Source of the DNA: Plumapathes pennacea
Taxonomy: Eukaryota > Cnidaria > Anthozoa > Antipatharia > Myriopathidae
Reading direction: 5' to 3'
DNA length: 64,000 nt
Assembly: GCA_964036295.1 (NCBI GenBank)
Contig: OZ038462.1
Span: 22,525,863-22,589,862 of the forward strand
Position numbers and translations under genes: made by a program. The notes beneath the pieces were generated by a model. The model did no database searches. It saw only the letters and a list, made by a program, of their open reading frames with translations, and was not told the origin of the DNA. Numbering within the stretch: the stretch's first letter is position 1; each line of letters begins with the position of its first letter. Positions 18,821-64,000 of this stretch are shown here, in pieces.

Positions 18821-19664
18821 TCCCCCGAGCAAAGCGAGGGTTTACTAAACGTGACAGCATTTGATCGAGTGAATGTTCGTCTGTCATTCAGTCATTCAGT
18901 CAGTCAAGGCAGACAACACTTCATGTAAAGACTAACGGAAAACTATTCTACTCCTTATAAGTTCGTTCCTTTCGTAATTGCGTTCACAATATTTCAAATG
19001 AATTTGAAAACTGGAAAACTTAAAACAGAACGGTCTCGCGAAGCTCGTCTTCAAATAAGAAGGGAACAGGCACGGGCAAGGCGAAATCGTGAAACGATCG
19101 AACAGCGCCAAATCCGTCTAGAGAAAAGACGACAAACATGTTATAACCGACAGCATCATGAACAGAAACGTGCCGAAGAAACGGCTCCGTAAAGGGAATA
19201 GCGCTTGAAAGCAAATCGGGTGCTTCAGACGTCGTTTTGTGTTAAACTCAGATACTTATTCAGAAAGGACAAGCAACAAAGGTCAGTCAGTGGAAATCGA
19301 ACAATCACCGTGACAAATATATTCTATCCCGTATCTTGTAACAACAAGTTCCCGTACTACGGCGGTCGACTATTAAACTTCAAAATTCAAGTATTAAATT
19401 TTGAGAACGTTGCTTGGCAGACTGTATGAATTAATTTGACGCGCCGACCATGGGAAATACATACGGCGTCACGCAATCGACACATTTTTCAACGCAAAAG
19501 TATAACACACTATTCTCTCCTTCCTTTACGTGTAGCACTTGACTTCGAAGAAAAGATTGCGTCAACATTTCGGTAAAACAAAGGCTGCTCTTGCTGAGCA
19601 GTACGAAAGTAAAAGTCCAATCAATGGCAGAGCGAGGGGGTATCTGCGATTATCGTATTTCTAG
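18821..19664 (+). mobile_element. Helitron copy 1 (non-autonomous)
   Basis: Begins TCCCCCGAGCAAAGCGAGGG after A and ends with GATTATCGTATTTCTAG before T. These are Helitron-type ends (5'-TC, 3'-CTRR, insertion between A and T), shared with copies at 46015-47726 and 61033-63709. It encodes a shortened Lys/Arg/Glu-rich frame at 18998-19192. No Rep or helicase domain is present. Confidence 0.75.
18998..19192 (+). CDS. Helitron-borne Arg/Lys/Glu-rich short ORF (copy 1)
   Basis: 64 residues beginning MNLKTGKLKTERSREARLQ, continuing with RREQARARRNRETIEQRQ. It is shorter than its relatives at 46483-46959 and 61295-61639, having only one of the EETxPQRxQRL-type repeats before a stop. Strongly charged, predicted helical. 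Function unknown; probably a remnant of a longer element protein. Confidence 0.4.
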   Translation: MNLKTGKLKTERSREARLQIRREQARARRNRETIEQRQIRLEKRRQTCYNRQHHEQKRAEETAP

Positions 19665-22058: not shown

Positions 22059-25000
22059 TTAATTGGTCGTTTTATTTTGTGACATACCAGCGACGCACGC
22101 GGTCATAAAACACGCCATTGAGCCCGCGAGCAACGCTCGCAAAGCAACGGTCGCCATGTCACCACGCCTGCCCGGCGCCATGGGACCCAGTCCCCCTAGC
22201 TGAATGCCGATGGCGCTAAAGTTTGAGAAACCACACAGTGCGTAGGTGGCGATGATCTCAGAACGGATCTGTTGGACAAATCAGACGAAGATGAGTTGCA
22301 ATGACTTGCTCCACATTAAAAAAAATGACTACGCATGATCCTGCCCGCCCACCCCACTCAAATACGTTCATGACGTCACTTCCGTTGGTCAGCATTCGTC
22401 GCCATTACATTGTAACTCGGTCTGACTCGCTCGTGTACAAACCCCGTTTTTCTTGTGCACAAATTATGTTATAGAGGTTTTACGAGCTTCTAAACTGCAA
22501 AATCTGCAATTTGCAGTTTTTATGCAATGACCGCTGACTCCAGAATAAGGTGACCGCCTGGCCGAAGACTCCGGCGTATTTCCGCGATGTCGAGGAACAC
22601 GCTAAAAGAGCAGAAAAAGACAGACGCAAACGGACAGACACAGAGACCAACACAGAGGCCGAGATACTCAACAGACAAATAGCGACGACGTTTTCTCGCA
22701 CTGCTACTTGGAACCTTCTTCAATATGAAAACAATTGTAATAAATTTTAGATTCTGAGCTAACTTGAACGGGTTTTCTGGCGGATTCTGCGCCTGGCGCT
22801 GCGTGACTTAGGTTTTTGGTTTCACGAAAGACAATCAAAAACTGCTCTGTAGTTTTATAGTATCATTTTTCTAAGGCTCCGGTAGTTGAGTTCCACAACT
22901 TTTCAGTCAATCTTATGACGAAAACATACACAAGAGGCACAGACAGAAACATACACAGACGCTCGGAAAATGAACCACAGAGGGGTGGAGTGGGGACTAA
23001 CCGAAATCGTACGACCATCAAGAGATTCCCTCCTGTTCTTGATGTATCCTGACAGCTGGATGTAAGCCACGAACTCATTTAAAAACGTCTTGATGCCGAT
23101 CAGTTGTGCCACTATGTCACAATCCTCCCACTTGACGCCCATCATGAAGGCCAGGGGCCTCAGCACGTAGGAGCAGATATACTGGGAAGAGATAAAAGAG
23201 AGAATGTCAAGACAAAAGATGACTGGGAAACGTCCATAAGGAAGACCACACTGGCCTCAGCACATTGGAGCAGAAGAACTGGGAAGAGATTAAAGACTAA
23301 AGGACTGGGAAACGTCCATAAGGAAGGCCACAGGTCTCAGCACATTGGAACAGATGGACTGGGAAGAGATAAAGACTAAAGGACTGGGAAACGTCCACAA
23401 GGAAGGCCACAACGCGTGCACATTGGGACCTGGTGCCCACTTCAGTGCCTGAGCACAAGGTCACAGGCATTGTGCCCGAATCACAGTAGTGCCAAGTGAG
23501 AATCGTACTCCGGCACAATGATTAGGCACTAAATGTGAACGTAGCCATTTGACTTCGAAAAAAATGGCGGAACACCAGAAATAGCGGACACTGAAACAAA
23601 AGGAAAAACATGACAATTATGGCAGTCACTTGCACAAGCCCTACATCAAAGTAGGCATGGATTTCTTCTTACCTCGAAGGTGAACTCGGGATGCCCCACC
23701 ATGGATCCAAGCCAAGATAGCGTCGCATTGAAAAAAGCTAAGAAAGCCAAAAAGGCGATCAAATTGGCCGCGATATTTGCCACAAGCGCGATGGAAATGC
23801 TCGCTCCTTTGGCGGCTGCTTCAAGAACATTGCGTTCATCACTACAGGTGCAGAACAGAAAGCAAAGGAAAATTAAAACCTATTTGCGCACTGGAAGTAC
23901 ATATTTCTACCAATAAAGTGCATAACTTCTGAACGTTTGACAAACATAGAGTTAGGTTAAGGTTTCAGCCCCCCATCGCCCCCCTTTCCTAATGTTCGTA
24001 ATAACTACTTTCCAGCAATTTTTTTTATTAAAATGGCATCGATTGACGAAGCATAGGCATGTTTTATATCGCACTGTTTGTTATTAAACTGTCCAGTTGT
24101 CTCTACAGTAAAACCTCACTATCTCGAACTCTCAAGGGAACCGAGAAATAGTTCGAGATAGCGGGGTTTTACTATAATACTGTCTGTTATTGATAAAAAT
24201 AATTAATTGGCAAACATTACTGCGCCATCATTGACATCACAGGTGTTTTGATATTTTTGAACGAAACCAATTGATTACGAAACGGCCAACGGGGTCTCAA
24301 TTTCTTGAAATTTTGCTTCAAAATTTTGTTATGATCTTTCATATTTTACCACTTGATAAACTTACGGAGCATACATTAAAAAGTTTATAAAAGATTTTAA
24401 AGTAAAATTTCAAAATTATGAGAACTCTCTTGTAGGCCCCATATTGAGGGACATTAAGTTAAAATATATATAGTCTAGGGCGCCATTAATTGTTCCGATT
24501 CGGTTATTTAGTATTGCTTCAGCCTAATGTTTAAAAAAAAGGTGTCTCAACACTTGCAGTTGGTTCCCCGCCTCACCCTTCCCCATCCAGTGTATAGGCA
24601 ATCCCCTTAGTACCCCTCCACAGTATAAATTCGACCACTGACCTGTCGGGGAGCTCGATATCATCCTCGTGCAACGTCTCTGGTTCCTCGGTCTCCGGAT
24701 AAAGGAGTTTGGAAATTGCAAGAGCAGCAGGAGCCGACATCACTGAGGCGCTCAACAGATGCGAGGCGGACACGCCAAACCCAATGAACGCGGCCAACAC
24801 ACCACCGGCGATGGTCGCGAAACCTCCAGTCATGATTGCATGTATTTCAGACATTGTGCAATACTGCAGAAATGGGCGCACCAAAAGTGGGGCTTCCGTC
24901 TACAGACAGAGAGAGAGAGAGAGAGACGTAAGCAATGCCAAGGGTACCTTGCGATGAGTTTTAAAGCTTTATTACCATCTTTCCCAGACTGTGCAAGTCT

Positions 25001-29795: not shown

Positions 29796-30584
29796 TTCAA
29801 TACGGGTCCGATTTTCTTTTCCTGATCACGAATGCCCAGTGAGAATCAACGGAATCAACAATGTGCCGCTTCGTTCGCACGCTATCAATCACAGTAAACA
29901 ACTTAAAATTTGGAGTGGAAAACTGGGAATGAGTCGAGAACAATGTTCAAACTGGCATGCATGGAATGTGTTACCTTTAAAGCACGGAATGAGATAAACA
30001 ATAACAAACCGATCGCGGCGATCAAAGAGTTATTAAAACTTTTGTGGAAGTCTTTCACCAGCGATACAATGTATTGCCGATATTAAGAACCTCCAAGGGA
30101 ATGAGTTATCGGAGGTAAAAATTATACAGGGAAGACAAATCAAAGGGAACTTTCGGGTTCGAGTTATCGGGATTCCATTGTATTTCAGAAAATCGCTGAA
30201 AATTTGTCCGGAAATCTGCATAGAGCTGGAGTTTCATGTGCTATAGTGGCCGTCACTGATTTACTAGTCGTCTTTGTTAATGTGCTGCAAAAACTTAGCT
30301 CGGCGATCATGTATCTTTCACAAATATGTCATGCATGGCTCAACTTCAGATTCAGGCCTGACCGAACTTCCATTCGATATCGCTGCGGTAGTATAATCGA
30401 TATAATTGCTGAAAAAAAAACGCTGTGAAATCGGAACAATTATTTAGAAATATAACATGCACAGACAGAAATGGAAAACCGGTCAGCTATCAATATTACA
30501 GTATCTTAACTTTCTTGGGGTGAGCTCATATGAAAACCAGGCTTGGATCTGAAGTGAAGTGAAGTGCGTGAAACACATACAGAA
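28441..30584. other. SLC28 intron 1 and region upstream
   Basis: Contains the short first exon at 29787-29795. A relic of TTCGAA/TTATCGG-type MITE lies near 30090-30180, ending GGATTCCATTGTA. The stretch 28690-28735 resembles the 3' end of the Helitron family (AGGGAGAGGG, then GCGAATATCGTATTTT) but has no CTAG end. No other exon is convincing. Confidence 0.5.
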
Positions 30585-30699
30585 CTAGACTGGCCTTGCC
30601 AGTGAGCTCGCGGCGTGAGTTGGGTCGAGACCAGAATATAAAATGAAAGTAGGGGTCTCAGAGCGGACTCCCAAGAGAGACTTCCATTTTCTCACCATA

Positions 30700-30800
30700 A
30701 AAATATCACACAGTATAGAGAACTTGGCTTTTGACACCTTGATTAAACTAAAAAATATTATTACAACACTCATACACTTGCTTCTTAAAGGTTGAGCGAC
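30700..30800. repeat. Dispersed repeat copy (family R1) inside Helitron-like copy A
   Basis: Contains CACAGTATAGAGAACTTGGC and TTTTGACA, then a TTAAAGGTTGAG-type tract. The equivalent stretch occurs in copy B (63300-63410), so R1 is carried along with the element. Confidence 0.6.
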
Positions 30801-31905
30801 CCTGCATCTTGAGAATGCGTGACATATCTTTTTATGTACAATCGATTATGACAGTTTGACCTTGACTCATATTTCTAATCAGAGGCCACGATTAATCCAG
30901 CCTTCGCTTCACTACTTATGTGTTTTCTTTTATTAACTCAATACGTTTCTTCTATCAGGCTTTCGAGTATTCGTGCTCTGTAACAAATATAAAATTGAAA
31001 GCGAGGAATGTCACACGAGAGATGTTTACAATATCATTGCGGTTTTGTTCACAGTGTGTTCAGTCAGTTTGTGACTGCAAACTCAATCCTCAGAATTATT
31101 TCGGTGTATTTTTTATTTCTGGTATTTAATGAACATTGCGAAACAAAGGCTACATGATCGAATGAAAGAAACACTTCAACAGGCAACGTACGATACGCAG
31201 AAGAATTTTATGAGGCAACAGATGTCATGTACAGAGTAAAGCATAAAGCGTCATTGTTTTACGGCTAAAGCTCACCGTAGCTTTGGTTTCTGTTTTCGCC
31301 CTGTTATCTTCCCAAAAGTATTTCGTGTCGCCACAGAAAGTTTCGTCGGGACTAAATACTTATCGGCGACAGAGATATTTGCAATACCCCAGCGGTATCC
31401 ATCAAACATTTGTTTACGGCTATTCTCAAAGCTTGTGCGGCGAACGCGAGCCAAAATCTTTTCCTAAAATCCAGTTTATCCGTGCTTATTCCACAGAGCC
31501 AAATGGCGTTGAGTTTGAATGGGATGCAGTTAACTTTTTCGCTTTACTACTTATGTGTTTTCTTTTATTAACTCAATAGGTTTTTCTATCAGGCTTTCGA
31601 GTATTCGTGCTCTGTAACAAATATAAAATTGAAAGCGAGGAATGTCACACGAGAGATGTTTACAATATCATTGCGGTTTTGTTCACAGTGTGTTCAGTCC
31701 ATTTGTGACTGCAAACTCAATCCTCAGAATTATTTCGGTTTATTTTTCATTTCTGGTATTCAATGACCATTGCGAAACAAAGGCTACATGATCGAATGAA
31801 AGAAACACTTCAACAGGCAATGTACGATACGCAGAAGAATTTTATGAGGCAACAGATGTCATGTACAGAGTAAAGCATAAAGCGTCATTGTTTTACGGCT
31901 AAAGC

Positions 31906-32160
31906 TCACCGTAGCTTTGGTTTCTGTTTTCGCCCTGTTATCTTCCCAAAAGTATTTCGTGTCGCCACAGAAAGTTTCGTCGGGACTAAATATTTATCGG
32001 CGACAGCGGTATCCATCAAATATTTGTTTACGGCTATTCTCAAAACTTCCGCGGCGAACGCGAGCCAAAATCGTTCCCGAAAATCCAGTTTATCCGTGCA
32101 TATTCCACAGAGCCAAATGGTGTTGAGTTTGGATGGAATGCAGTTAACTTTTACACACAA
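31906..32160 (-). CDS. 84-residue ORF of Helitron-like family (copy A)
   Basis: Begins MCVKVNCIPSKLNTIWLCGI and ends ATRNTFGKITGRKQKPKLR. The same frame, full length with about five substitutions, occurs at 62568-62822 in copy B, and a truncated partner at 31272-31454 in the first half of the internal duplication. No known domain. The substitutions are mostly amino-acid changing, so there is no sign of selection on the protein; coding status is doubtful. Confidence 0.3.
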   Translation of the reverse strand: MCVKVNCIPSKLNTIWLCGICTDKLDFRERFWLAFAAEVLRIAVNKYLMDTAVADKYLVPTKLSVATRNTFGKITGRKQKPKLR

Positions 32161-32336
32161 GTAACGAGCAATTCACTGGCCACATCTCGAGTTGTTTAGC
32201 GAAGTCAATTACGTCATCGCCCAGCACGTGATAATATGAACCAATCACCGTGTGCTGATTCTCGACTCACAAAAAGGAAAAAAATGAAAATAAAAATTTG
32301 CGTTTTTAAGCTCGCTTGGGCCCCAGGCCCCCGCGA

Positions 32337-33054
32337 TCAAAAAGGAGCAAAGGAGCTCTACAATTTAAAACTAACTTCAGATATATTGAGAAAAGAAAAT
32401 ATCCTTATCCTGGCTAAAGGATTCACAAAAACATGTTGAGGTGTTGTCTTAGTATGTAGTCACGATGTAAGGGAGTCAGTTGAGCGCCTATGCTTGGTAG
32501 CACAATACAGAGACTTTGACGATTGAATGCTAACTAAATCCTTTGAGCACAGGCGACGGAACAGTGAAAGTACACATTTCCCGGCTTTCTGAAAACTTGC
32601 CCACCTTGAAAACATTCCCATTTCTGTTCGAAACAACGACAAAATAAAAAATCAGCCGGTGGATCACTTATTACGCCACAGAGCTGCTTGAGTGCATGGA
32701 TTGAATCAAGAGACCATAAGGTCTCTCAAGTGAGTACAATTCGGTGCATTGCCGGCGAGAACGCGATAAGGACGTACCATATGTGGCTGTGGCTGTACAG
32801 CAGTAAAACTCGGATTTGTGGACTTGGATGGAGCAGCTGATAAACTTATGACTGTTGCTCTGAGTGTCGGGGCTGTGGCTTTCTAGGGTGTGAAGTAGGT
32901 AGGACTTGAGACACGTTTTCAGACCCGATTACGATTCTTTGCACAGTAGAAGAGGACTGCGGGGTACTGTGTATCCAAGTCAGCCATTGACCCTATATTT
33001 CAGACCGGTCCCCCAAACTCATAGCCAGGGATATTTGTCGTCTCGGCGCGAGGC
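32337..33054. other. Intergenic, nothing recognised
   Basis: Lies between the Helitron-like element and the kinesin gene's 3' end. No exon, repeat or RNA gene could be supported. Confidence 0.5.
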
Positions 33055-35641: not shown

Positions 35642-35850
35642 TACATAGCCGTTCTAAGGATTCTTACAGAGCCGCTCTAAGGATTCTTACAGAGCCGTTC
35701 TAAGGATTCTTACAGAGCCACTCTAAGGATTCTTACAGAGCCGTTCTAAGGATTCTTACAGAGCCACTCTAAGGATTCTTACAGAGCCGTTCTAAGGATT
35801 CTTACAGAGCCACTCTAAGGATTCTTACAGAGCCGTTCTAATGATTCTTA
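35642..35850. repeat. Subterminal 23-bp tandem array (left arm)
   Basis: About nine units of ACAGAGCCGTTCTAAGGATT plus CTT. CCGTTCTAAGG and CCACTCTAAGG variants mostly alternate, implying a 46-bp higher-order unit. Confidence 0.9.
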
Positions 35851-36639
35851 GTTTGAATTGTGTAACGGGTATTTTGACCCCTGTGCTATTTTATTAAGAT
35901 TAATGGTGGATGAGTTATATGAGGTTAAGGGAGTGATCGAGTGGCGAAGTGAAGTATAAATTAAAATGATGTGCGTTAGTACGTGATTATATGCTGCAGC
36001 GCTAAAATGGGGTCCGTGTCAGGGCTTGTATTTGTGTAGGGAACATTTTCGGTAGGGAGACATGTAGTTGGGGTCGGTAGTTAACACGTGTGTTGGGTAA
36101 CAAAGGGGACGGGAGCGAAGAGCGAATAAAACCGAGAATACAATAAACAGAGAACTGAGAAACGAAGGGATTAGTGAAGAAGCTAACACAATAACAGTAA
36201 TTAATAGAAGTGGAAGTTAAACGGGTGGTGTAGGAAAGAGCGCTCTAAAAAGTGTGTCGAACTAATGAGCATCATTTGAGGTTTGTCCGTCGAAGCAACC
36301 GCGCTATTCTCATCAGGGGCATAGTAACGCGGTTGCTCTATGAAGGTGAAAGTTCCTTCAATAGTACGTGTTTCGAAATGGTAGGCGCGCGCCATCCATG
36401 CCCTACACGATCAACGGTTACAAACTTTTGGCCCTGGCCGAGTTGAGGGTGAAGGGAGAAAGGCGGGGAAGATAGTCAAGACTTCGACACAAGGAGGGGA
36501 GGGAAAAAAATTAGGTGGAAGGAATTGACTTACCTCGATAGATTTCCGAAGATCGATGCCGTAGGACTGCATCCAAACGCTAAGTAAAATACTGGGTTGC
36601 AATACGACAGGCAGTTGTAAACGAAGTCGAATCGTGGCC
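35849..36639. repeat. 791-bp direct repeat, left copy
   Basis: Matches 37947-38737 with a constant offset of 2098 and only about two differences noticed. Starts TAGTTTGAATTGTGTAACGG and ends GAAGTCGAATCGTGGCC. Contains a 64-residue minus-strand frame (36201-36395, starts MARAYHFETRTIEGTFTF) that is intact in both copies. No TG...CA ends, so it is not an ordinary LTR. A minus-strand exon-like segment ends at a GTAAGT donor near 36537. Confidence 0.85.
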
Positions 36640-37946: not shown

Positions 37947-38737
37947 TAGTTTGAATTGTGTAACGGGTATTTTGACCCCTGTGCTATTTTATTAAGATTA
38001 ATGGTGGATGAGTTATATGAGGTTAAGGGAGTGATCGAGTGGCGAAGTGAAGTATAAATTAAAATGATGTGCGTTAGTACGTGATTATATGCTGCAGCGC
38101 TAAAATGGGGTCCGTGTCAGGGCTTGTATTTGTGTAGGGAACATTTTCGGTAGGGAGACATGTAGTTGGGGTCGGTAGTTAACACGTGTGTTGGGTAACA
38201 AAGGGGACGGGAGCGAAGAGCGAATAAAACTGAGAATACAATAAACAGAGAACTGAGAAACGAAGGGATTAGTGAAGAAGCTAACACAATAACAGTAATT
38301 AATAGAAGTGGAAGTTAAACGGGTGGTGTAGGAAAGAGCGCTCTAAAAAGTGTGTCGAACTAATGAGCATCATTTGAGGTTTGTCCGTCGAAGCAACCGC
38401 GCTATTCTCATCAGGGGCATAGTAACGCGGTTGCTCTATGAAGGTGAAAGTTCCTTCAATAGTACGTGTTTCGAAATGGTAGGCGCGCGCCATCCATGCC
38501 CTACACGATCAACGGTTACAAACTTTTGGCCCTGGCCGAGTTGAGGGTGAAGGGAGAAAGGCGGGGAAGATGGTCAAGACTTCGACACAAGGAGGGGAGG
38601 GAAAAAAATTAGGTGGAAGGAATTGACTTACCTCGATAGATTTCCGAAGATCGATGCCGTAGGACTGCATCCAAACGCTAAGTAAAATACTGGGTTGCAA
38701 TACGACAGGCAGTTGTAAACGAAGTCGAATCGTGGCC
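37947..38737. repeat. 791-bp direct repeat, right copy
   Basis: Near-identical to 35849-36639, including the 64-residue minus-strand frame (38299-38493). The unit of duplication could equally be 2098 bp (repeat plus minisatellite) with a truncated second copy. Confidence 0.85.
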
Positions 38738-46014: not shown

Positions 46015-47726
46015 TCCCCGAACGAAGTGAGGGAAATACTCACGACGCTAATGTAGTAGTATTATCGCCTTATCGGAGACTCCAAGCCTGTCGCCATCTC
46101 GAAATCTAATGTTCGTCTGTCAGTCTGTCAGTCTGTCGTGCGACCTCGTCCCCAGTTTCTATCGCGTCGCTGCAGAACCAATAACAAAGGCCGGATCGAT
46201 CACGTATGGCCCTGTAGTTTTACTGAGAAATTAGATTGAACGAAGCAACTACAGTATATCGTAGCTGTGTTCACGAAAATGGAAAACTTAAAAACCTGAA
46301 AACTTGAAACACAACAGTCTCGCGAAGTTCGTCTTCAAAACAGAAGGGAACAGGCCCGAGCAAGGCGGAATCGTGAAACGATCAAACAGCGCCAAGTTCG
46401 TCTCGACAAAAGACGGAACTATGACCGAGAGCATCATCAAAAGAAGCGTGCCGAAGAAACGACTCCGAAAAGAAAACAGCGCATGAATGCCGATCGAAAG
46501 CGACATGAAGAGAAGCGGGTAACACAGACAACTCCGCAAAGAGAACAGCGCTTGAAAGCGAATCGAGACTTTCAGGAGAAAAAGCGGGCCGAAGAGAAGA
46601 CTCCGCAAAGACAACAGCGCATGAATGCCGACCAAAAGCGACATGAAGAGAAGCGGGTAACACAGACAACTCCGCAAAAAGAACAGCGCTTGAAAGCGAA
46701 TCGGGACCTTCAGGAGAAAAAGCGGGCCGAAAAAAAGACTCCGCAAAGACAACAGCGCATGACTGCCGACCAAAAGCGACATGAACAGAAGCGGGTAACA
46801 CAGACTACTCCGCAAAGGGAACAGCGCTTGAAAGCAAATCGGGAGCTTCAGACGCCGTTTTGTGTTAAACTCAGATACTTATTTAGAAAGGACAAGCAGC
46901 AAAGGTTAGTCAGTGGAAATCGAACAATCACCGTGACAAATATATTCTATCCCGTATAGCTTGTAACTCGATCACTTCAGGCCGGAATGTATTAAAATCT
47001 GTATGCTGATCATTTTCCCTCGAAGTATTGTTTTACTACGCTTCTGTCGCCAGTTTCGGCTACGGTATTCGCTCAGAGCAATGGGAACTTGGAGTCTTGA
47101 ATGATTTAGTCAGATGTCTTATTTTTCTGTAATCTGACACGCGGTGATTGCAGCAAGAATCGTTCACAAGCCCTTAGAAGTATTACTGGGTCTGAAGCCC
47201 GTGTATAATTTGAAGTAAACTGTTCAAGTTTTGCTTTGATTCTGGGAAAAATCTTGCTGTTTTGAGTGGGTTCACATACAAAACAATTCGAGCCTATTAA
47301 ATATGCATGCCTGAGTCTGGAGCATGCCGCCCAGAGTAAAAACAAATCGCACAGGAAGCCTATTTAATTGTACTGCCTATGAATTCAAAATTGAAAAATC
47401 AGTGTTCCTTTTTTCCCGTACTACGACGGCCGACCAACTTCAAAATTTGAGTATTAAATTTTGAGAACGTGCTTGGCAGACTGTATGAATTAATTTGACG
47501 TGCCGACCGTGGGAAATACGTTCGTCACGCAATCGATTCTATTTTCAACGCAAAAGTATAACGCACACCATTCTTTTTCTTCGTCCTTTGCGTGTAGCAC
47601 TTGAGTTCGAAGAAAAGATTGAGTCAACATTTCGGTAAAACAAAGGCTACTCTTGTTGGAAGTTACCAAAGTAAAAGTCCCATCAATGGCAGAGTGAGGG
47701 GGTATCTGCGATTATCGTATTTCTAG
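46015..47726 (+). mobile_element. Helitron copy 2
   Basis: Begins TCCCCGAACGAAGTGAGGG after A and ends GCGATTATCGTATTTCTAG before T. Carries the longest Lys/Arg/Glu repeat frame of the family (46483-46959). Colinear with copies 1 and 3, with 500-700 bp of interior not present in copy 1. No Rep/helicase, so non-autonomous. Confidence 0.78.
46483..46959 (+). CDS. Helitron-borne repeat protein, Lys/Arg/Glu-rich (copy 2)
   Basis: 158 residues made of repeats of the type KTPQRQQRMNADQKRHEEKR and TTPQREQRLKANRDLQEKKR, alternating, followed by a conserved tail FCVKLRYLFRKDKQQRLVSG. An upstream piece in another frame (46304-46486) indicates a frame break at the start. Predicted long charged helix. 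Similar repeats are seen at the N-termini of long Helitron or other element proteins in animals (uncertain recall). Possibly translated; function unknown. Confidence 0.45.
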   Translation: MNADRKRHEEKRVTQTTPQREQRLKANRDFQEKKRAEEKTPQRQQRMNADQKRHEEKRVTQTTPQKEQRLKANRDLQEKKRAEKKTPQRQQRMTADQKRHEQKRVTQTTPQREQRLKANRELQTPFCVKLRYLFRKDKQQRLVSGNRTITVTNIFYPV

Positions 47727-48164: not shown

Positions 48165-48565
48165 GTTATGCCACAGAAATTGGCCGCAAAATTCTGCTGC
48201 CGCCGCAAGCCCCAGACAGAAATTCTGTGGCCTCACAATTCGCCGCAAGCCACAGAAATTCTGTGGCCTCACAATTCGTCGCAAACCACAGAAATTCTGT
48301 GGCCTCACAATTCGCCACAAGGGACAGAAATTCTGTGGCCTCAAAATTCGCCGCAGGCCACAGAAATTTTGTGGCCTCAAAATTCGCTGCAAGGGACAGA
48401 AATTCTGTGGCCTCAAAATTTGCCGCAAGGGACAGAAATTCTGTGGCATCGAAATTCGCCGCAAGGGACAGAAATTCTGTGGCTTCGAAATTCGCCGCAA
48501 GGGACAGAAATTCTGTGGCCTCAAAAATTCGCCGCAAGGGACAGAAATTCTGTGGCGCAAAGTTC
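48165..48565. repeat. 36-bp tandem array, left arm
   Basis: About ten units built on GGGACAGAAATTCTGTGGCC then TCAAAATTCGCCGCAA. The unit core ACAGAAATTCTGT is a perfect palindrome. Because 36 is divisible by 3, several frames stay open on both strands and give repeats such as GTEILWPQNSPQ. Confidence 0.9.
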
Positions 48566-49059
48566 TGATAAATAACAAATGATACTCAAACTAAATCCCA
48601 AACTCTAGCATGTATTCAAATCAATAATATTCATAATATTATTTTGGTCAGGGTTCGTTCGTTATCATTTTCAAATTAAATTTCGAAATTTTCACTGTTC
48701 TGAAATTTACCTATTGGCTGAGAAATGAAGTTAGCCATGCATTATTTGAAAATTTTCAGTCAACTGTTACTTAGAAGTTCATGACTGCTGTCTAAATTCA
48801 AGGTCTTTCAAGCCATTATACACACTCAAGGACAAGATAAGCGGTCAATTTCATGAACCCTGTTGGTTATGACTGAGATTGGCTCTCTTCTTCCAATGTA
48901 CTGAGTGTGCTGAGCCACACAGCATTCCTTCTTGCTTTAGAGCAGCAACCAGGCATCCTTCTCCCCACTTTCTATGTCTCCTTCTCTTGACATGTATTTG
49001 ACCAACCAAGAGAAGGCTTCTTGTGACAGCTGACCTCTGACGAAATATATATTACAGTA

Positions 49060-49192
49060 AGGAGAACTTGGCTTTTAATAGATTGCTCAGATAGTAGCTG
49101 ATTAAACTGTGAACTGTCACTACATCACTTATATATTTTCTTCTTAGAAGGTTGGGAGAATCTGCATCTTGATCTTGGGAGTGAAAGGGTTA
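49060..49192. repeat. Dispersed repeat copy (family R1) in foldback left arm
   Basis: Full-looking R1: AGTAAGGAGAACTTGGCTTT, then GATTAAACTGTGAACTGTCA, CTACATCACTTATATATTTT and GGGAGTGAAAGGGTTAAA. Its inverted partner is at 51026-51160. Confidence 0.75.
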
Positions 49193-51025
49193 AACGGTTT
49201 AATTTGCTGGCTCACATAAAATCTGGTAGAACTGGCCAGTATTGCCGGTTAATACTCGCTTGAGTATTGTCAACATTTGAGCCATTTTCTTCTAGATTTC
49301 AAGGAGAATCTACATAGTATGCAAATTGAATATACTAGATGAAAGATTGTCGAATATAAACACTGGTATTTTGTGAACTCGTGAGTGAGGGTGTTTGCCA
49401 ACCTGATGATATTAATACAACACTCAGCACTGAAATTTCGGCAATTGGCTGAACTTGCTTGTTTAGCTTATGAGAAAAATGAAGACCCGGAGAGAAAATA
49501 ATAAAACGGCAGCATACCTCTGCTTTCCTTCTCCTCTGTTTCCGTTCGACGACAAACCCTTGTCTCTGTCCTTGCTCACAAATGTGGATTAAACGAGGTG
49601 CGGTATAGATGTAAACGGTCACACAGATGTGTTGTAGTGCAGCTTTTCTTAGGCTACAATTACCCGGCATCACGTTAAAGCCGGTCAGGGGTAAAGTTGT
49701 GAATGAATTTGAAAAGAAAAGACGTTTACTTTGTGGGTAACTGGTTTGTAATAACTGTCACAAGATGCTGCGGTATTCTTTTAGTGCTAATACTTGCTGC
49801 GGCTTCCGCTGTTATTGTTTTTTGTTGATCTTTTTTTCTTTTTTTTTTTTTTTTTTTTTATCTCTTTTCTTCTTCTCCAGCACTGAGGCAAGAAATCAAA
49901 TATGATTTTGCTGCAGTGCAGAAATAATGCTGAAGACCTTTTTCTTTTTTATCCATTTCTTTGTTTGACTAAAACTGTCACAAGATCTTGCGGTATTCTT
50001 TTAAGCCAGCGGCTTCCGGCCCTTTTGTTCTTTTCTTTTTTCTTTCCTCAGACGCTCCAAGATTTGCAGCAGTAAAGATCATTTTTGGCCCATTGTTTTC
50101 ACTCCTTTGATATTCGTTCATTTCGTTTTCTTGGAGACAACGCCTTATACCTAATTTTTGTGCAAAGGTTGACCCCACGCCGCCTCGACTAGCGGGCACT
50201 TCTGTCACTTTTGACCCCTCGCTGAGGCCGTCCGCTAATTTTAAAATAGTCAAACAAAGAAACAAACAAAGGTCTTCAGAAGTATTTCTGCACTGCAGCA
50301 AAATCATATTTGATTTCTCGCCTCAGTGCTGGAGAAGAAGAAAAGAGAAAAAAACAAAACAAAACAAAATAACAGATCAACAAAAAACAATAACACCGGA
50401 AGCCGCAGCAGGTATTAGCACTTGTGACAGTTATTACAAACCAGTTACCCACAAAGTAAACGTCTTTTCTTTTCAAATTCATTCACAACTTTACCCCTGA
50501 CCTGCTATAACGTGATGCTGGGTAATTGTAGCCTAAGAAAAGCTGCACTACAACACATCTGTGTGACCGTTTACATCTATACCGCACCTCGTTTAATCCG
50601 CATTTATGAGCAAGGACAGAGACAAAGGTTTGTCGTCGAACGGAAACATGTCAATTGCGACTGGTTTGTCGTCGAACGGAAACAGAGGAGAAGAAGGAAA
50701 GCAAAGGTATGCTGCCGTTTTATTATTTTCTCTCCGGGTCTTCATTTTTCTCATAAGCTAAACAAGCAAGTTCAGCCAATCGCCGAAATTTCAGTGCTGA
50801 GTGTTGTATTAATATCATCAGGTTGGCAAACACCGTCACTCACGAGTTCACAAAATACCTGTGTTTATATTCGACAATCTTTCATCTAGTAAATTCAATT
50901 TGCATACTATGTAGATTCTCCTTGAAATCTAGAAGAAAATGGCTCAAATGTTGACAATACTCGAGCGAGTATTAACCGGCAATACTGGCCAGTTGGAGCC
51001 AGCAAATTAAACCAAGTTCTCTGTT

Positions 51026-51160
51026 TAACCCTTTCACTCCCAAGCTCAAGATGTAGATTCTCCCAACCTTCTAAGAAGAAAATATATCAGTGATGTAGTG
51101 ACAGTTCACAGTTTAATCAGCTACTATCTGAGCAATCTATTAAAAGCCAAGTTCTCCTTA
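51026..51160. repeat. Dispersed repeat copy (family R1) in foldback right arm
   Basis: Inverse of 49060-49192, beginning TTAACCCTTTCACTCCCAAG. Confidence 0.75.
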
Positions 51161-51754
51161 CTGTAATATATATTTCGTCAGAGGTCAGCTGTCACAAGAA
51201 GCCTTCTCTTGGTTGGTCAGCTGTCATGTCAAGAGAAGGAGACATAGAAAGTGGGGAGAAGGATGCCTGGTTGCTGCTCTAAAGCAAGGAAGGAATGCTG
51301 TGTGGCTCAGCACAGCTAAGAAGGATGATAGGCCGCATATACTTAGAAGAGTTGCAGAACAGCTGCATGCAGATGTAGATGAAGAGAGTGTGGGTCAAGT
51401 TGAGAGTGCATTGGAAGAAGAGAGTCAATCTCAGTCATAACCAACAGGGTTCATGAAATTGACCGCTTATCTTGCAAAGTCCTTGAGTATGTATAATGGC
51501 TTGAAAGCCCTTGAATTTAGGCAGCAGTCATGAACTTCTAAGTAACAGTTGACTGAAAATTTTCAAATAATGCATGGCTAACTTCATTTCTCAGCCAATA
51601 GGTAAATTTCAGAACAGTGAAAATTTCGAAATTTAATTTGAAAATGATAACGAACGAACCCTGACCAAAATAATATTATGAATATTATTGATTTGAATAC
51701 ATGCTAGAGTTTGGGATTTAGTTTGAGTATCATTTGTTATTTATCAGAACTTTG

Positions 51755-52265
51755 CGCCACAGAAATTCTGTCCCTTGTTGCGAATTGTGAGGCCACAGAA
51801 TTTCTGTCCCTTGCGGCGAATTTTGAGGCCACAGAATTTCTGTCCCTTGCGGCGAATTTCGAGGCCACAGAATTTCTGTTCCTTGTGGCGAATTTCGAAA
51901 CCACAGAATTTCTGTCCCTTGCGGCGAATTGTGAGGCCACAGAATTTCTGTCCCTTGCGGCGAATTTCGAGGCCACAGAATTTCTGTGGCTTGCGGCGAA
52001 TTTCGAGGCCACAGAATTTCTGTGGTTTGCGACGAATTTTGAGGCCACTGAATTTCTGTGGCTTGCGGCGAATTGTGAGGCCACTGAATTTCTGTGGTTT
52101 GCGGCGAATTTTGAGGCCACTGAATTTCTGTGGCTTGCGGCGAATTTTGAGGCCACTGAATTTCTGTGGCTTGCGGCGAATTGTGAGACCACAGAATTTC
52201 CGTGGCTTGCGGCGAATTGTGAGGCCACAGAATTTATGTGGCTTGGCTTGTGGCGAGCTTTGAGG
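51755..52265. repeat. 36-bp tandem array, right arm (inverted)
   Basis: About 14 units of GAGGCCACAGAATTTCTGTC or TGTGGCTTGCGGCGAATTTC order; a subset of units has CACTGAATTT in place of CACAGAATTT, clustered in the distal half. Inverse of 48165-48565 but with more copies. Confidence 0.9.
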
Positions 52266-53327
52266 CCACGTAGCAAAATGTAATTTTTGAATGAGTGTAT
52301 TGATTTTGTGATGTTTGCATTAAACCTTTTCCTGAAGCCTTAAAATGTCACGCGTGTCTAGGGTTGTTTTAGAAGAATAAAGAGGGGATAAAGGAGATGT
52401 CAGCGAAACTTTGAACGTTTGAACGTTTTCAACAAACCTGAACTCAGTTTAGAATGATTTTGACAGAAAAAATATGTTCGTCCGTGAAAGTAGTTTGTTT
52501 GAACTTAGGAAATAATACATTGCTCGAACCTTCGGAGAAAAACGAGTGATAAGATACCTCAAGATTTTGAAGAAAATGTCATTCCTCAAAATGTTGCCTC
52601 ACCATAGTTTTCAAAAATATATTGGAATCCGCTAATCTCTTAACGTTTTGGTGAGAAACAATTTGTTTGTCCGTTTGATTATATGGTTTTATTTGAAGAT
52701 TTTTGTTTTGGCAACGAAAAGCAGTTGATTTTAGCAGAGTCGTGCTCAAAAATCTCCTAAAATCCATCGATATTTGCGGAAATAGCTATTTTGGAAAAAC
52801 CCAAACTTCTTTGGAAGACGTTCGACGTTAAATAAAATCACCTTAGCTTTTTTTTACCTTTATTCGCTGATAACGTCCGCTGGTGAGCAGACGTTATTCG
52901 GTCACGTGTCACGATTCAACCAATCACGTGCGGGAGAAAATATTTGATGGGTCATAAATTTGGATTTATAGGATAAAATGAATAGTACGCGCGATCTGAT
53001 TGGTCAACGCTGTGCATTATAGTTTGTTATAAAATACGATAGAGAATAGTAAACGCTTACGAATCCGTGTGCATTATACTTCAACATAGCACACACGTGT
53101 TAATTTGAAGTCGAACCGCGTCAAACTCGATTCCCTCTTTATGTCGTATTTGTAAATTAAGTTGTTGCGAGCTTGCTATGTTGAGTTTAGAATCACTTGG
53201 GAATTTAAAACAACAAGAGTGTGAAGAAGCATTCCACGGAGTCATCTTTCCCCACACTTCTCACTTATTCTTTCAAATTCCGCGTGCTTTCTATAACTCA
53301 ACACAGCAATCTGACAAGTGTTTTTCC

Positions 53328-60849: not shown

Positions 60850-61294
60850 TTGCTTTGATTCATATTTGTACCACTTGATAAACTTACTCAGTATACATTA
60901 AAAAGTTTATAAAACATTTTGAAGTCAAATTTCAAAATTATAACTCTTTTGTAGGTCCCTACATTGATGGAATTGAGGGACATTAAGTCAAAACACATAT
61001 CTAGGACGTCATTGATTGTTCCGATTTGCTTATCCCCGAGCGAAGCGAGGGAAATAGTCACAACGTTAATGCAGTAGTTGTCGCATCATTCGGAGACTCC
61101 AAGCGTGTCGCCATCTCGAAATTTAATGTTCGTCTGTCAGTCTCTCAGTCTGTCAGTTTGGCGTACAACCTCGTCCCCAGTTCCCATCGCTGCATAACCA
61201 ATAACAAAGGCCGGATCGATCACGTGTGGCCCTGTAGTTTTACTCGCAATAAGAGAAATTAGATTGAACGAAGCAACTACAGTCCATCGTAGCT

Positions 61295-61639
61295 GTGTTC
61301 ACGAAAATGAATTTGAAAAATGGAAAACCTGAAACACAACAGTCTCGCGAAGCTCTTCTTCAAAAGAGAAGGGAACAGGCACGGGTAAGGCGGAATTGTG
61401 AAACGATCGAACAGCGCCAAATACGTCTAGAGAAAAGACGACAGCATGATAAACAGAAGCGTGCCGAAGAAACGACTCCGCAAAGAAAACAGCGCTTGAA
61501 TGCCAATCGAAAGCGGCATGGACACAAGCGAGCCGAAGAAAACACTCCACAAAGAGAACAGCGGCTGAAAGCAAAACGGGAACTTCAAGAGCTAAAGCGG
61601 GCCGAACGGAAAAGACTCCGCAGAGAAAACAGCGCATGA
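61295..61639 (+). CDS. Helitron-borne Lys/Arg/Glu-rich ORF (copy 3)
   Basis: 114 residues starting MFTKMNLKNGKPETQQSREA and with EETTPQRKQRLNANRKRHGH-type repeats. A one-base change near 61620 ends the frame early: the continuing repeat is readable in another frame (61630-61750). Homologous to 18998-19192 and 46483-46959. Function unknown. Confidence 0.42.
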   Translation: MFTKMNLKNGKPETQQSREALLQKRREQARVRRNCETIEQRQIRLEKRRQHDKQKRAEETTPQRKQRLNANRKRHGHKRAEENTPQREQRLKAKRELQELKRAERKRLRRENSA

Positions 61640-62567
61640 ATGCCGATCGAAAGCGGCATGAACACAAGCGAGTCGAAGAAAACACTCCACAAAGAGAAGA
61701 GCGCTTGAAAGCGAATAGGCAACTTCAGACGCCGTTTTGTATTAAACTCAGATAGTTATTCAGAAAGGACAAGCAACAAAGGTTAGTCAGTGGAAATGGA
61801 ACAATCACCGTGACAAATATTATTCTACCCGTATCTTGTAACTCGATCACTTCAAGAATGTATTAGAATCTGTATGGTGATCATTTTCCTTTGAAGTATT
61901 GCTTTAATACGCTTCTGTCGCCAGTTTGCTCAGAGCAATTGGAACTTGGAGTCTTGAATGATTTAGTCAGATGTCTTATTTTTCTTTCAAGACTAAAACT
62001 GTAACAGATGCTGTAATCTGACATGTGGTGATTGCAGCGAGAATCGTTCACAAGCCCTTAGAAGTATGACTAGGTCTAAAGCCTGTGTATAATTTGAAGT
62101 AAACCGTTCAAGTTTTGCTTTGATTCTGGGAGAAGTCATACTGTTTTGAGCGGGTTCACATACAAAACAATTCGAGCTCATTAAATATGCATGCCTGAGT
62201 CTGGTGCGTGCAGGCCAGAGTAAAAACAAATCGCACAGGATGCCTATTTAATTGTACTGCATGTGAATTCAAAATTGGAAAATCAGTGTTCTTTTTTTCC
62301 CGTACTACGACGGCCGACCAACTTCAAAATTTAAGTATTAAATTGGCAGACGCCGACCGTTGGAAATACGTACTTCGTCACGCAATCGACTCTTTTTGCT
62401 CGCGAGGGCCTAGGGCCCAAGCGAGCTTAAAAACGCAAATTTCTATTTAATTTTTTTCCTTTTTGTGGGTCAAGAATCAGTACACGTTGATTGGTTCATA
62501 TTATCACGTGCTGGGCGATGACGTAATTGACTTCGACTCGAGATGTGGCAAGTGAATTGCTCGTTAC

Positions 62568-62822
62568 TTGTGTGTAAAAGTTAACTGCATCCCATCCAAA
62601 CTCAACACCATTTGGCTCTGTGGAATATACACGGATAAACTGGATTTTCGGGAACGATTTTGGCTCGCGTTCACCGCGGAAGCTTTGAGAATAGCCGTAA
62701 ACAAATATTTGATGGATACCGCTGTCGCCGATAAATATTTAGTCCCGATGAAACTTTCTGTGGCGACTCGAAATGCTTTTGGGAAGATAACAGGGCGAAA
62801 ACAAAAACCAAAGCTGCGGTGA
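62568..62822 (+). CDS. 84-residue ORF of Helitron-like family (copy B)
   Basis: Full-length partner of 31906-32160; begins MCVKVNCIPSKLNTIWLCGI and ends ATRNAFGKITGRKQKPKLR. About five residues differ. No domain recognised. Confidence 0.3.
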   Translation: MCVKVNCIPSKLNTIWLCGIYTDKLDFRERFWLAFTAEALRIAVNKYLMDTAVADKYLVPMKLSVATRNAFGKITGRKQKPKLR

Positions 62823-63299
62823 CCTTTAGCCGTAGAACAATGACGCTTTATGCTTTACTCTGTACATGACATCTGTTGCCTCATAAAATTCTTCTGCGTA
62901 TCGTACATTGCCTGTTGAAGTGTTTCTTTCATTCGATCATGTAGCCTTTGTTTCGCAATTTTCATTAAATACCAGAAATGAAAAATACACCGAAATAATT
63001 CTGAGGATTGAGTTTGCAGTCACAAATGGACTGAACACACTGTGAACAAAAGCGCAATAATATTGTAAACATCTCTCGTGTGACATTCCTCGCTTTCAAT
63101 TTTATATTTGTTACAGAGTACGAATACTCGAAAGCCTGATAGAAGAAACGTATTGAGTTAATAAAAGAAAACACATAAGTAGTGAAGCGAAGGCTGGATT
63201 AATCGTGGCCTCTGCTTAGAAATAAGAATCAAGGTCAAACTGTCATAATCGATTGTGCATAAAAAGATATGTCACGCATTCTCAAGATGCAGGGTCGCT

Positions 63300-63410
63300 C
63301 AACCTTTAAGAAGCAAGTGTAGGAGTGTTGTAATAATAATTTTTAGTTTAATCAAGGTGTCAAAAGAGGAAGGTGTCAAAAGCCAAGTTCTCTATACTGT
63401 GTGATATTTT
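63300..63410. repeat. Dispersed repeat copy (family R1) in Helitron-like copy B
   Basis: Inverse of 30700-30800, with AAAAGCCAAGTTCTCTATAC. Confidence 0.6.
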
Positions 63411-63845
63411 TATGGTGAGAAATTGGAAGTCTCTCTTGGGAGTTCCGCTCTTGTCCCCTACTTTCCATTTTATATTCTGGTCTCGACCCAACTCACGCCG
63501 CGAGCTCACTGGCAAGGCCAGTCTGGTTTCAACGCAAAAGTATAACACACACCATTCTTTTTCTCCTTCCTTTGCGTGTAGCACTTGACTTCGAAGAAAA
63601 GATTGAGACAACATTTCTGTAAAACAAAGGCTACTCTTGTTGGGAGTACCAAAGTAAAAGTCCCGTCAATGGCAGAGCGAGGGAGTATCTGCGATTATCG
63701 TATTTCTAGTTTAGTATTGCTTCAGCCTAATGTTATAAAAAAATTTCTCTTAACATTCGCAGTTGGTTCCCCGCCTCACCCTTCCCCCGCCAGTGTATAG
63801 GCAATCCCCTTAGTACCCCTCCACAGTATAAATTTGGCCACTAAC

Positions 63846-64000
63846 CTGTCGGGGAGCTTGATATCATCCTCGTGCAACGTCTTGGGTTCCTCGGTCTCCG
63901 GATAAAGGAGTTTGGAAATTGCAAGAGCAGCAGGAGCCGACATCACTGAGGCGCTCAACAGATGCGACGCAGACACGCCAAACTCAATGTACGCTTTCAT
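63846..64000 (-). pseudogene. SLC28A3: SLC28 duplicate, upstream exon (cut by window end)
   Basis: Matches the 3' part of exon 24643-24899: [20 protein letters not shown], then [20 protein letters not shown] and a GTTAGT donor in place of GTCAGT. The frame is open to the window edge. With 53328-55041 it belongs to the second transporter copy. Whether that copy works depends on sequence beyond 64000 and on splicing across more than 8 kb of inserted DNA. Confidence 0.75.

Follow-up and report, generated by a model that had tools for sequence, protein, structure and literature searches.

The window, by which we mean the whole 64,000-nucleotide stretch of Plumapathes pennacea DNA analysed here, carries at 61033-63709 what is almost certainly a non-autonomous Helitron copy with Helitron1-type ends, presumably moved by a Rep/helicase of the type encoded by two long relatives elsewhere in the genome (A1 and B), its charged-repeat open reading frame being a relic of that protein. 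The reading is carried by shared ends, a target preference, two empty sites, the lack of any consistent target duplication and an open Rep/helicase/OTU frame in A1. Elements of this kind are already known, and we take the family as a probable new member. The features of the window to which the text refers are as follows.

61033..63709, plus strand: non-autonomous Helitron insertion, 2,677 bp, 5'-TC...CTAG-3', A and T flanking
24506..24507, plus strand: paralogous empty site, A and T at the junction
63527..63709, plus strand: 3' section of the window Helitron, whose final 35 bp match the 3' termini of A1 and B at 94% identity
62393..63526, plus strand: insertion of another, high-copy family nested in the Helitron; it ends about TGCTCGCG...CTAGT, with T runs obscuring the exact limits
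46015..47726, plus strand: second family copy, without the nested insertion; A, then TC...CTAG, then T
18821..19664, plus strand: third family copy, shorter and diverged, 5' end TCCCCCGAGCAAAGCGAGGG; A, then TC...CTAG, then T
61033..61056, plus strand: 5' terminus TCCCCGAGCGAAGCGAGGGAAATA, also present at the Rep-bearing loci A1, B and C; possible hairpin
61307..61639, plus strand: probable remnant of the 23-aa repeats at the Rep/helicase N-terminus, STPRs-like (PF21107, 23-aa period, ORF1 homology)

The boundaries of the window element follow from its paralogous empty site. With the element left out and the right flanks joined (60870-61032 to 63710-63994), the alignment to the left paralogue at 24330-24791 crosses the junction of TTA and TTTAGTATTG without a gap, at 93.0% identity over 285 bp downstream and 82.3% over 181 aligned columns upstream. 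The first-pass annotation had placed a Helitron insertion with 5'-TC and 3'-CTAG ends between A and T at exactly these bases, and the gap-free alignment bears this out for the window element, with the site between 24506 and 24507 empty and nothing lost or duplicated there. The alignment that it had proposed, beginning from 60990-61033, gives a false 1-bp gap, because a span ending at 61033 takes in the first T of the element. One junction base is ambiguous since a T is present on both sides; TC...CTAG followed by T is the reading that holds across copies. The paired stretches 24507-24791 and 63710-63994 are themselves a duplicated coding-like stretch of the window, which we take to resemble a nucleoside transporter (SLC28-like). 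For the copies at 46015 and 18821, no empty site was found inside the window.

The first reading had missed the stretch 62393-63526 as a separate nested insertion, together with the two further family copies, neither of which contains it. This 1.13-kb repeat recurs in at least 39 other places of the genome at 95-97% identity (40 best candidates scored), and in the 29 copies compared it ends about TGCTCGCG...CTAGT inside T runs, perhaps resembling a Helentron-type non-autonomous element that inserts between two Ts. Another copy lies at 30583-32344 on the minus strand, partly duplicated, and copies stand back to back in opposite orientation at C3:12222238-12224234 and C7:15605939-15607970. The window also holds a large inverted repeat at 48201-52269 that looks like a foldback element. 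Its arms of about 1.7 kb are mostly 90-95% identical, and each outer end bears an array of 36-bp tandem repeats (48215-48556 and 51756-52245). Two 791-bp direct repeats (35849-36639 and 37947-38737) are 99.7% identical and separated by a 1.3-kb spacer with tandem repeats; in the window they have no TG...CA ends and their flanks differ.

A search for the family ends in 290 Mb of the genome (24 contigs) gave 2,303 matches when the 5' 21-mer was allowed 1 mismatch and 2,699 when the 3' 33-mer was allowed 2, with reversed-pattern controls returning 0 in each case; the exact 21-bp 5' core occurs 1,615 times. T follows CTAG in 2,011 of 2,037 exact 3' ends, the other 26 having C (18), A (5) or G (3). 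On the 5' side, A or G precedes 1,450 of the 1,615 exact matches and T or C the other 165; among the matches listed, 100 purine-flanked ends divide into 78 A and 22 G, and 100 pyrimidine-flanked ends into 97 T and 3 C. These counts describe a target consisting of a base that is rarely C and mostly A, followed by T. Insertion between A and T therefore stands as a family rule for the T after the 3' end, but on the 5' side the order of preference is A>G>T and the base is not always A. The same picture is given by 16 distinct insertions with both ends matched at no more than 3 mismatches, where the 5' flank is A in 9, G in 6 and T in 1 and the 3' flank is T in every case. Flank identity of 2-3 bp occurs in 4 of these 16 and none in 12, so there is no consistent target-site duplication, and other copies stop at the same bases as the window element; a departure on either point had been named at the outset as evidence against a Helitron. 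On contig C4, between 21.98 and 26.32 Mb, six family copies (L044-L048 and L050) have a common 3' flank, TAGTTT(T/C)ATAACTA, so that the Helitron there seems to be carried along within a larger unit that is repeated or duplicated.

The first-pass annotation had also suggested searching for an autonomous Rep/helicase relative with the same ends, and two elements that share both termini were found. A1 (C1:12217897-12230439, minus strand) is 12,543 bp long, and B (C12:5940912-5953201, plus strand) is 12,290 bp long and lies between A and T. The genome was searched with the Pfam model Helitron_like_N, the best 150 of 209 candidates being scored, and A1 was picked by eye when the Rep places were set against the 100 exact 5' ends that come first (C1 to 15.5 Mb): it is a Rep place with a 1,603-aa open frame, and an exact 5' end lies about 2.8 kb upstream of it. 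A broken Rep fragment at C1:13855223 is 6.5 kb from another family 5' end. The 150 Rep places scored fall in several score groups, one of which comprises four places at E about 1e-56, an indication that the genome holds several Helitron lineages.

The A1 region contains two family 5' ends on the minus strand, and it is from the second that ORF1 (517 aa) and the 1,603-aa frame run. By their Pfam matches, ORF1 ends in DUF6570 and the 1,603-aa frame continues it; we infer that GTAAGA...TTTTTAG between the two is an intron. The longer frame matches Helitron_like_N (104 bits), PIF1 (94) and OTU (44) as well as Pif1_2B, and has the motifs IHAH at 359, RYMAKYIAKG at 552 and GTAGTGKS at 895; no endonuclease model is among the Pfam matches of the 1,603-aa frame at E up to 0.001. 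The Rep is presumably of the HUH, two-tyrosine kind, with a provisional assignment of its catalytic tyrosines. The helicase segment is like that of Helraiser (7lcc, E 1.4e-15), the OTU and STPR-like parts lying outside the aligned segment, and the first 431 residues (the Rep part) gave only a chance match among solved structures in a single-sequence search, leaving the Rep part of Helraiser unmatched there.

At its 3' end, 12,543 bp from the start, A1 reads GAGTGAGGGGGTATCTGCGATTATCGTATTTCTAG followed by T, a terminus that matches the final 35 bp of the window element at 94% identity. A1 was read throughout and B at its ends, the 1,603-aa frame of B being known from the genome-wide Helitron_like_N search only; A1 and B are 98.9% identical over 2,001 bp spanning the end of the frame and the tail, which argues for recent movement. 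A1 itself sits between G and T inside the tail of another family member, and its joined flanks (GGTTTTG to TTA) align without a gap to an uninterrupted tail, which thereby serves as a second empty site. A candidate 3' end, ACACAAGGTTTTG, was rejected as internal tail sequence that A1 interrupts in one family member. The 3' end of the window element is absent from the 2-3 kb that follow the Rep frames; A1 and B are longer and end with it further on. A third Rep place, locus C (C1:36404240), has the 5' end, after T; the 6.1 kb read there, starting close to where its Rep frame ends, contain no 3' end. Between the window element and A1 or B, convincing similarity is confined to the initial 700 bp or so, the final 35 bp and, further up, a stretch of 21 bp at 90%.

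The charged repeat, which had been regarded as the only visible protein of the family, does not appear to be a separate protein and is explained instead as a relic of the Rep/helicase N-terminus. The window frame opens at 61295, stops at 61639 and matches Pfam STPRs (PF21107) with an E of 3.3e-9 and 37.5 bits, over a cut-off of 27. Its peptide is also present in A1 ORF1 (SREARLQKRREQARARRNRETIEQRQIRLEK vs. SREALLQKRREQARVRRNCETIEQRQIRLEK). The strongest residue periodicity is 23 in the window ORF and 46 and 23 in A1 ORF1 (P0002), where 10 of the 12 lines printed show E and R five apart (E....R), with E4/R9 as our own reading of the register. A1 ORF1 has no STPRs match even at E 10, and we infer that composition filters are responsible. 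Among the genome matches listed, 16 places have STPRs over the cut-off; eight of these, at 7 loci, share their strand with a listed Rep domain and lie no more than 8 kb upstream of it (one at 7.2 kb), and at two of the 7 loci the open frames reported are equal in length, as if they were one frame. Short family elements account for two of the 16, namely the window's own and one at C1:27968007 adjacent to a 3' end, and the other six are unassigned, the STPRs and Rep lists each covering 150 scored candidates.

In silkworm FMBP-1, STPR is the repeat that binds DNA, and each repeat is described with an E4-R9 salt bridge (PMC4821344); the repeats of FMBP-1 and ZNF821 have the same 23-aa period, with E and R five apart like the E4-R9 of FMBP-1 (PMC4821344). 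Here, in contrast, the repeats stand at the start of a transposon Rep/helicase protein, any DNA binding by them is putative, and the likeness is one of Pfam match and period. It is conceivable, although we hold it doubtful, that some animal Helitron transposases regularly carry STPR-type 23-residue repeats at the N-terminus for DNA or end recognition, with FMBP-1 and ZNF821 derived from there or the transposon having taken the repeats from a host. Our literature search found no publication joining STPR with Helitron: among the matches listed, none joins an STPR protein (FMBP, ZNF821) with a Helitron or Helentron term, and those combining STPR with transposition and DNA binding use the letters in other senses, as judged from the listing.

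The 5' terminus may form a hairpin with a CCC/GGG stem and an R-C-GAA-G-Y tip. The R/Y pair of the tip is A-T in 88, G-C in 10, A-C in 1 and G-T in 1 of the 100 purine-flanked ends listed (Fisher p 7e-12), and A-T in 90, G-C in 8 and G-T in 2 of the 100 pyrimidine-flanked ends listed (Fisher p 2e-10), statistics that are weakened because the copies are related. Across 23 distinct 5' end sequences the pair is G-C in 14, A-T in 5, G-T in 4 and A-C in 0, and on a rough tree A-T is not confined to a single place; of the individual ends, L037 breaks the inner C-G pair and L060 alters the loop. The folding energy of this hairpin is no better than that of shuffled sequences (z -0.76 and 0.21), and the DNA folding model takes no special account of sheared G-A pairs or GAA loops. 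Covariation thus speaks for a 5' GAA-loop hairpin and folding energy against it, and we treat it as possible. Near the 3' end, stems of GCAGA/TCTGC or GCGA/TCGT are possible, with no clear advantage over shuffled sequences (z -0.73 over 39 nt and -1.94 over the last 20 nt). By eye, the motif AGYGAGGG is seen near each end of the element, in direct orientation.

The observations at the empty site and in the repeat frame could be read differently. If the left copy had once carried the element and lost it by precise excision, the site between 24506 and 24507 would not be the original empty site, and since the flanks are old duplicates at 82-93% identity, either order is possible in principle. Helitrons copy themselves, though, and are not known to leave cleanly, the site is without a footprint, and the joint is the same at the second empty site, that of A1, so that we regard excision as scarcely credible. 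Only slightly better placed, and still very improbable, is the notion that the repeat ORF of the short elements is itself a working protein of the non-autonomous family. It draws on a pN/pS of 0.52 over a 38-codon block in 12 distinct sequences and on a 219-aa frame in the copy at 46015; those 12 sequences, however, mix Rep-bearing and short copies, with 26 gapped or short matches left out, and the window frame stops at 61639. The longest frames of several short copies (first 1,200 bp scanned) start part way in or stop early, and for this reason we read the frame as a relic.

The subtype deserves separate consideration, as the protein could descend from Helentron or Helitron2 despite the Helitron1-type ends, as in the proto-Helentron of Phytophthora. 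OTU proteases are described for Helentrons (PMC4067079) and in some Helitrons (PMC9741609), and a 5' GAA-loop hairpin for the Helitron2-like FoHeli1/2 (PMC5148889). Against such a descent, CTAG is followed here by T, the 5' flank is mainly A or G and the Pfam matches of the A1 frame at E up to 0.001 include no endonuclease model; we find it unlikely. The window element, A1 and B have the TC...CTAG termini of Helitron1 (5'-TC, 3'-CTRR), and insertion between two Ts, as in Helentrons, is not the family pattern, T or C preceding only 165 of 1,615 5' ends. An OTU domain without an endonuclease leaves some room on the subtype, and it is by its ends that we call the family Helitron1-type.

The canonical animal Helitron1 is described with the same 5'-TC and 3'-CTRR ends, insertion before T without target duplication, and Rep plus PIF1-type helicase in the autonomous partner (PMC4067079, PMC5148889), whereas the present family has a 5' flank relaxed to A>G>T, a C-terminal OTU, N-terminal STPR-like 23-aa repeats and a weak 3' hairpin. 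FoHeli1/2 of Fusarium oxysporum have a T-initial 5' end, as here, and a GAA-loop hairpin like the possible one here, and insert between TNAT and T, but end in ATATTTT at the 3' side with asymmetric terminal inverted repeats, in place of CTAG (PMC5148889). As far as the account in PMC4067079 goes, the proto-Helentron of Phytophthora infestans shares the 3' CTAG, the insertion between A and T, a paralogous empty site and the absence of an endonuclease, and differs in having a 5' TT with SET and other proteins where this family has TC and OTU.

For the Helitron1-type reading, a mechanism can be proposed in which the Rep (HUH, two-tyrosine) and PIF1-type helicase of the 12.3-12.5 kb relatives would recognise the 5' TCCCCGA... 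and 3' ...TATCTGCGATTATCGTATTTCTAG ends and mobilise the short element in trans. The protein would nick and peel off one strand, which may then be joined, without target duplication, into a new site between a rarely-C, mostly A base and T. CTAG joined directly to TCCCCGA occurs 16 times in the genome at no more than 2 mismatches (7 exact; 0 in the control), where random insertion predicts about 0.01 (2,303 x 2,699 / 580 million). Such head-to-tail junctions fit rolling-circle concatemers, insertion of a circle, or preferred insertion at an existing 3' end.

The family is now defined to the base, with thousands of copies of its ends and an autonomous partner identified, so that both the ends and the target rule can be tested. 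The STPR-like N-terminus and the possible 5' GAA hairpin give starting points for studying end recognition by a Helitron protein, and the direct head-to-tail junctions give one for circular or tandem intermediates.
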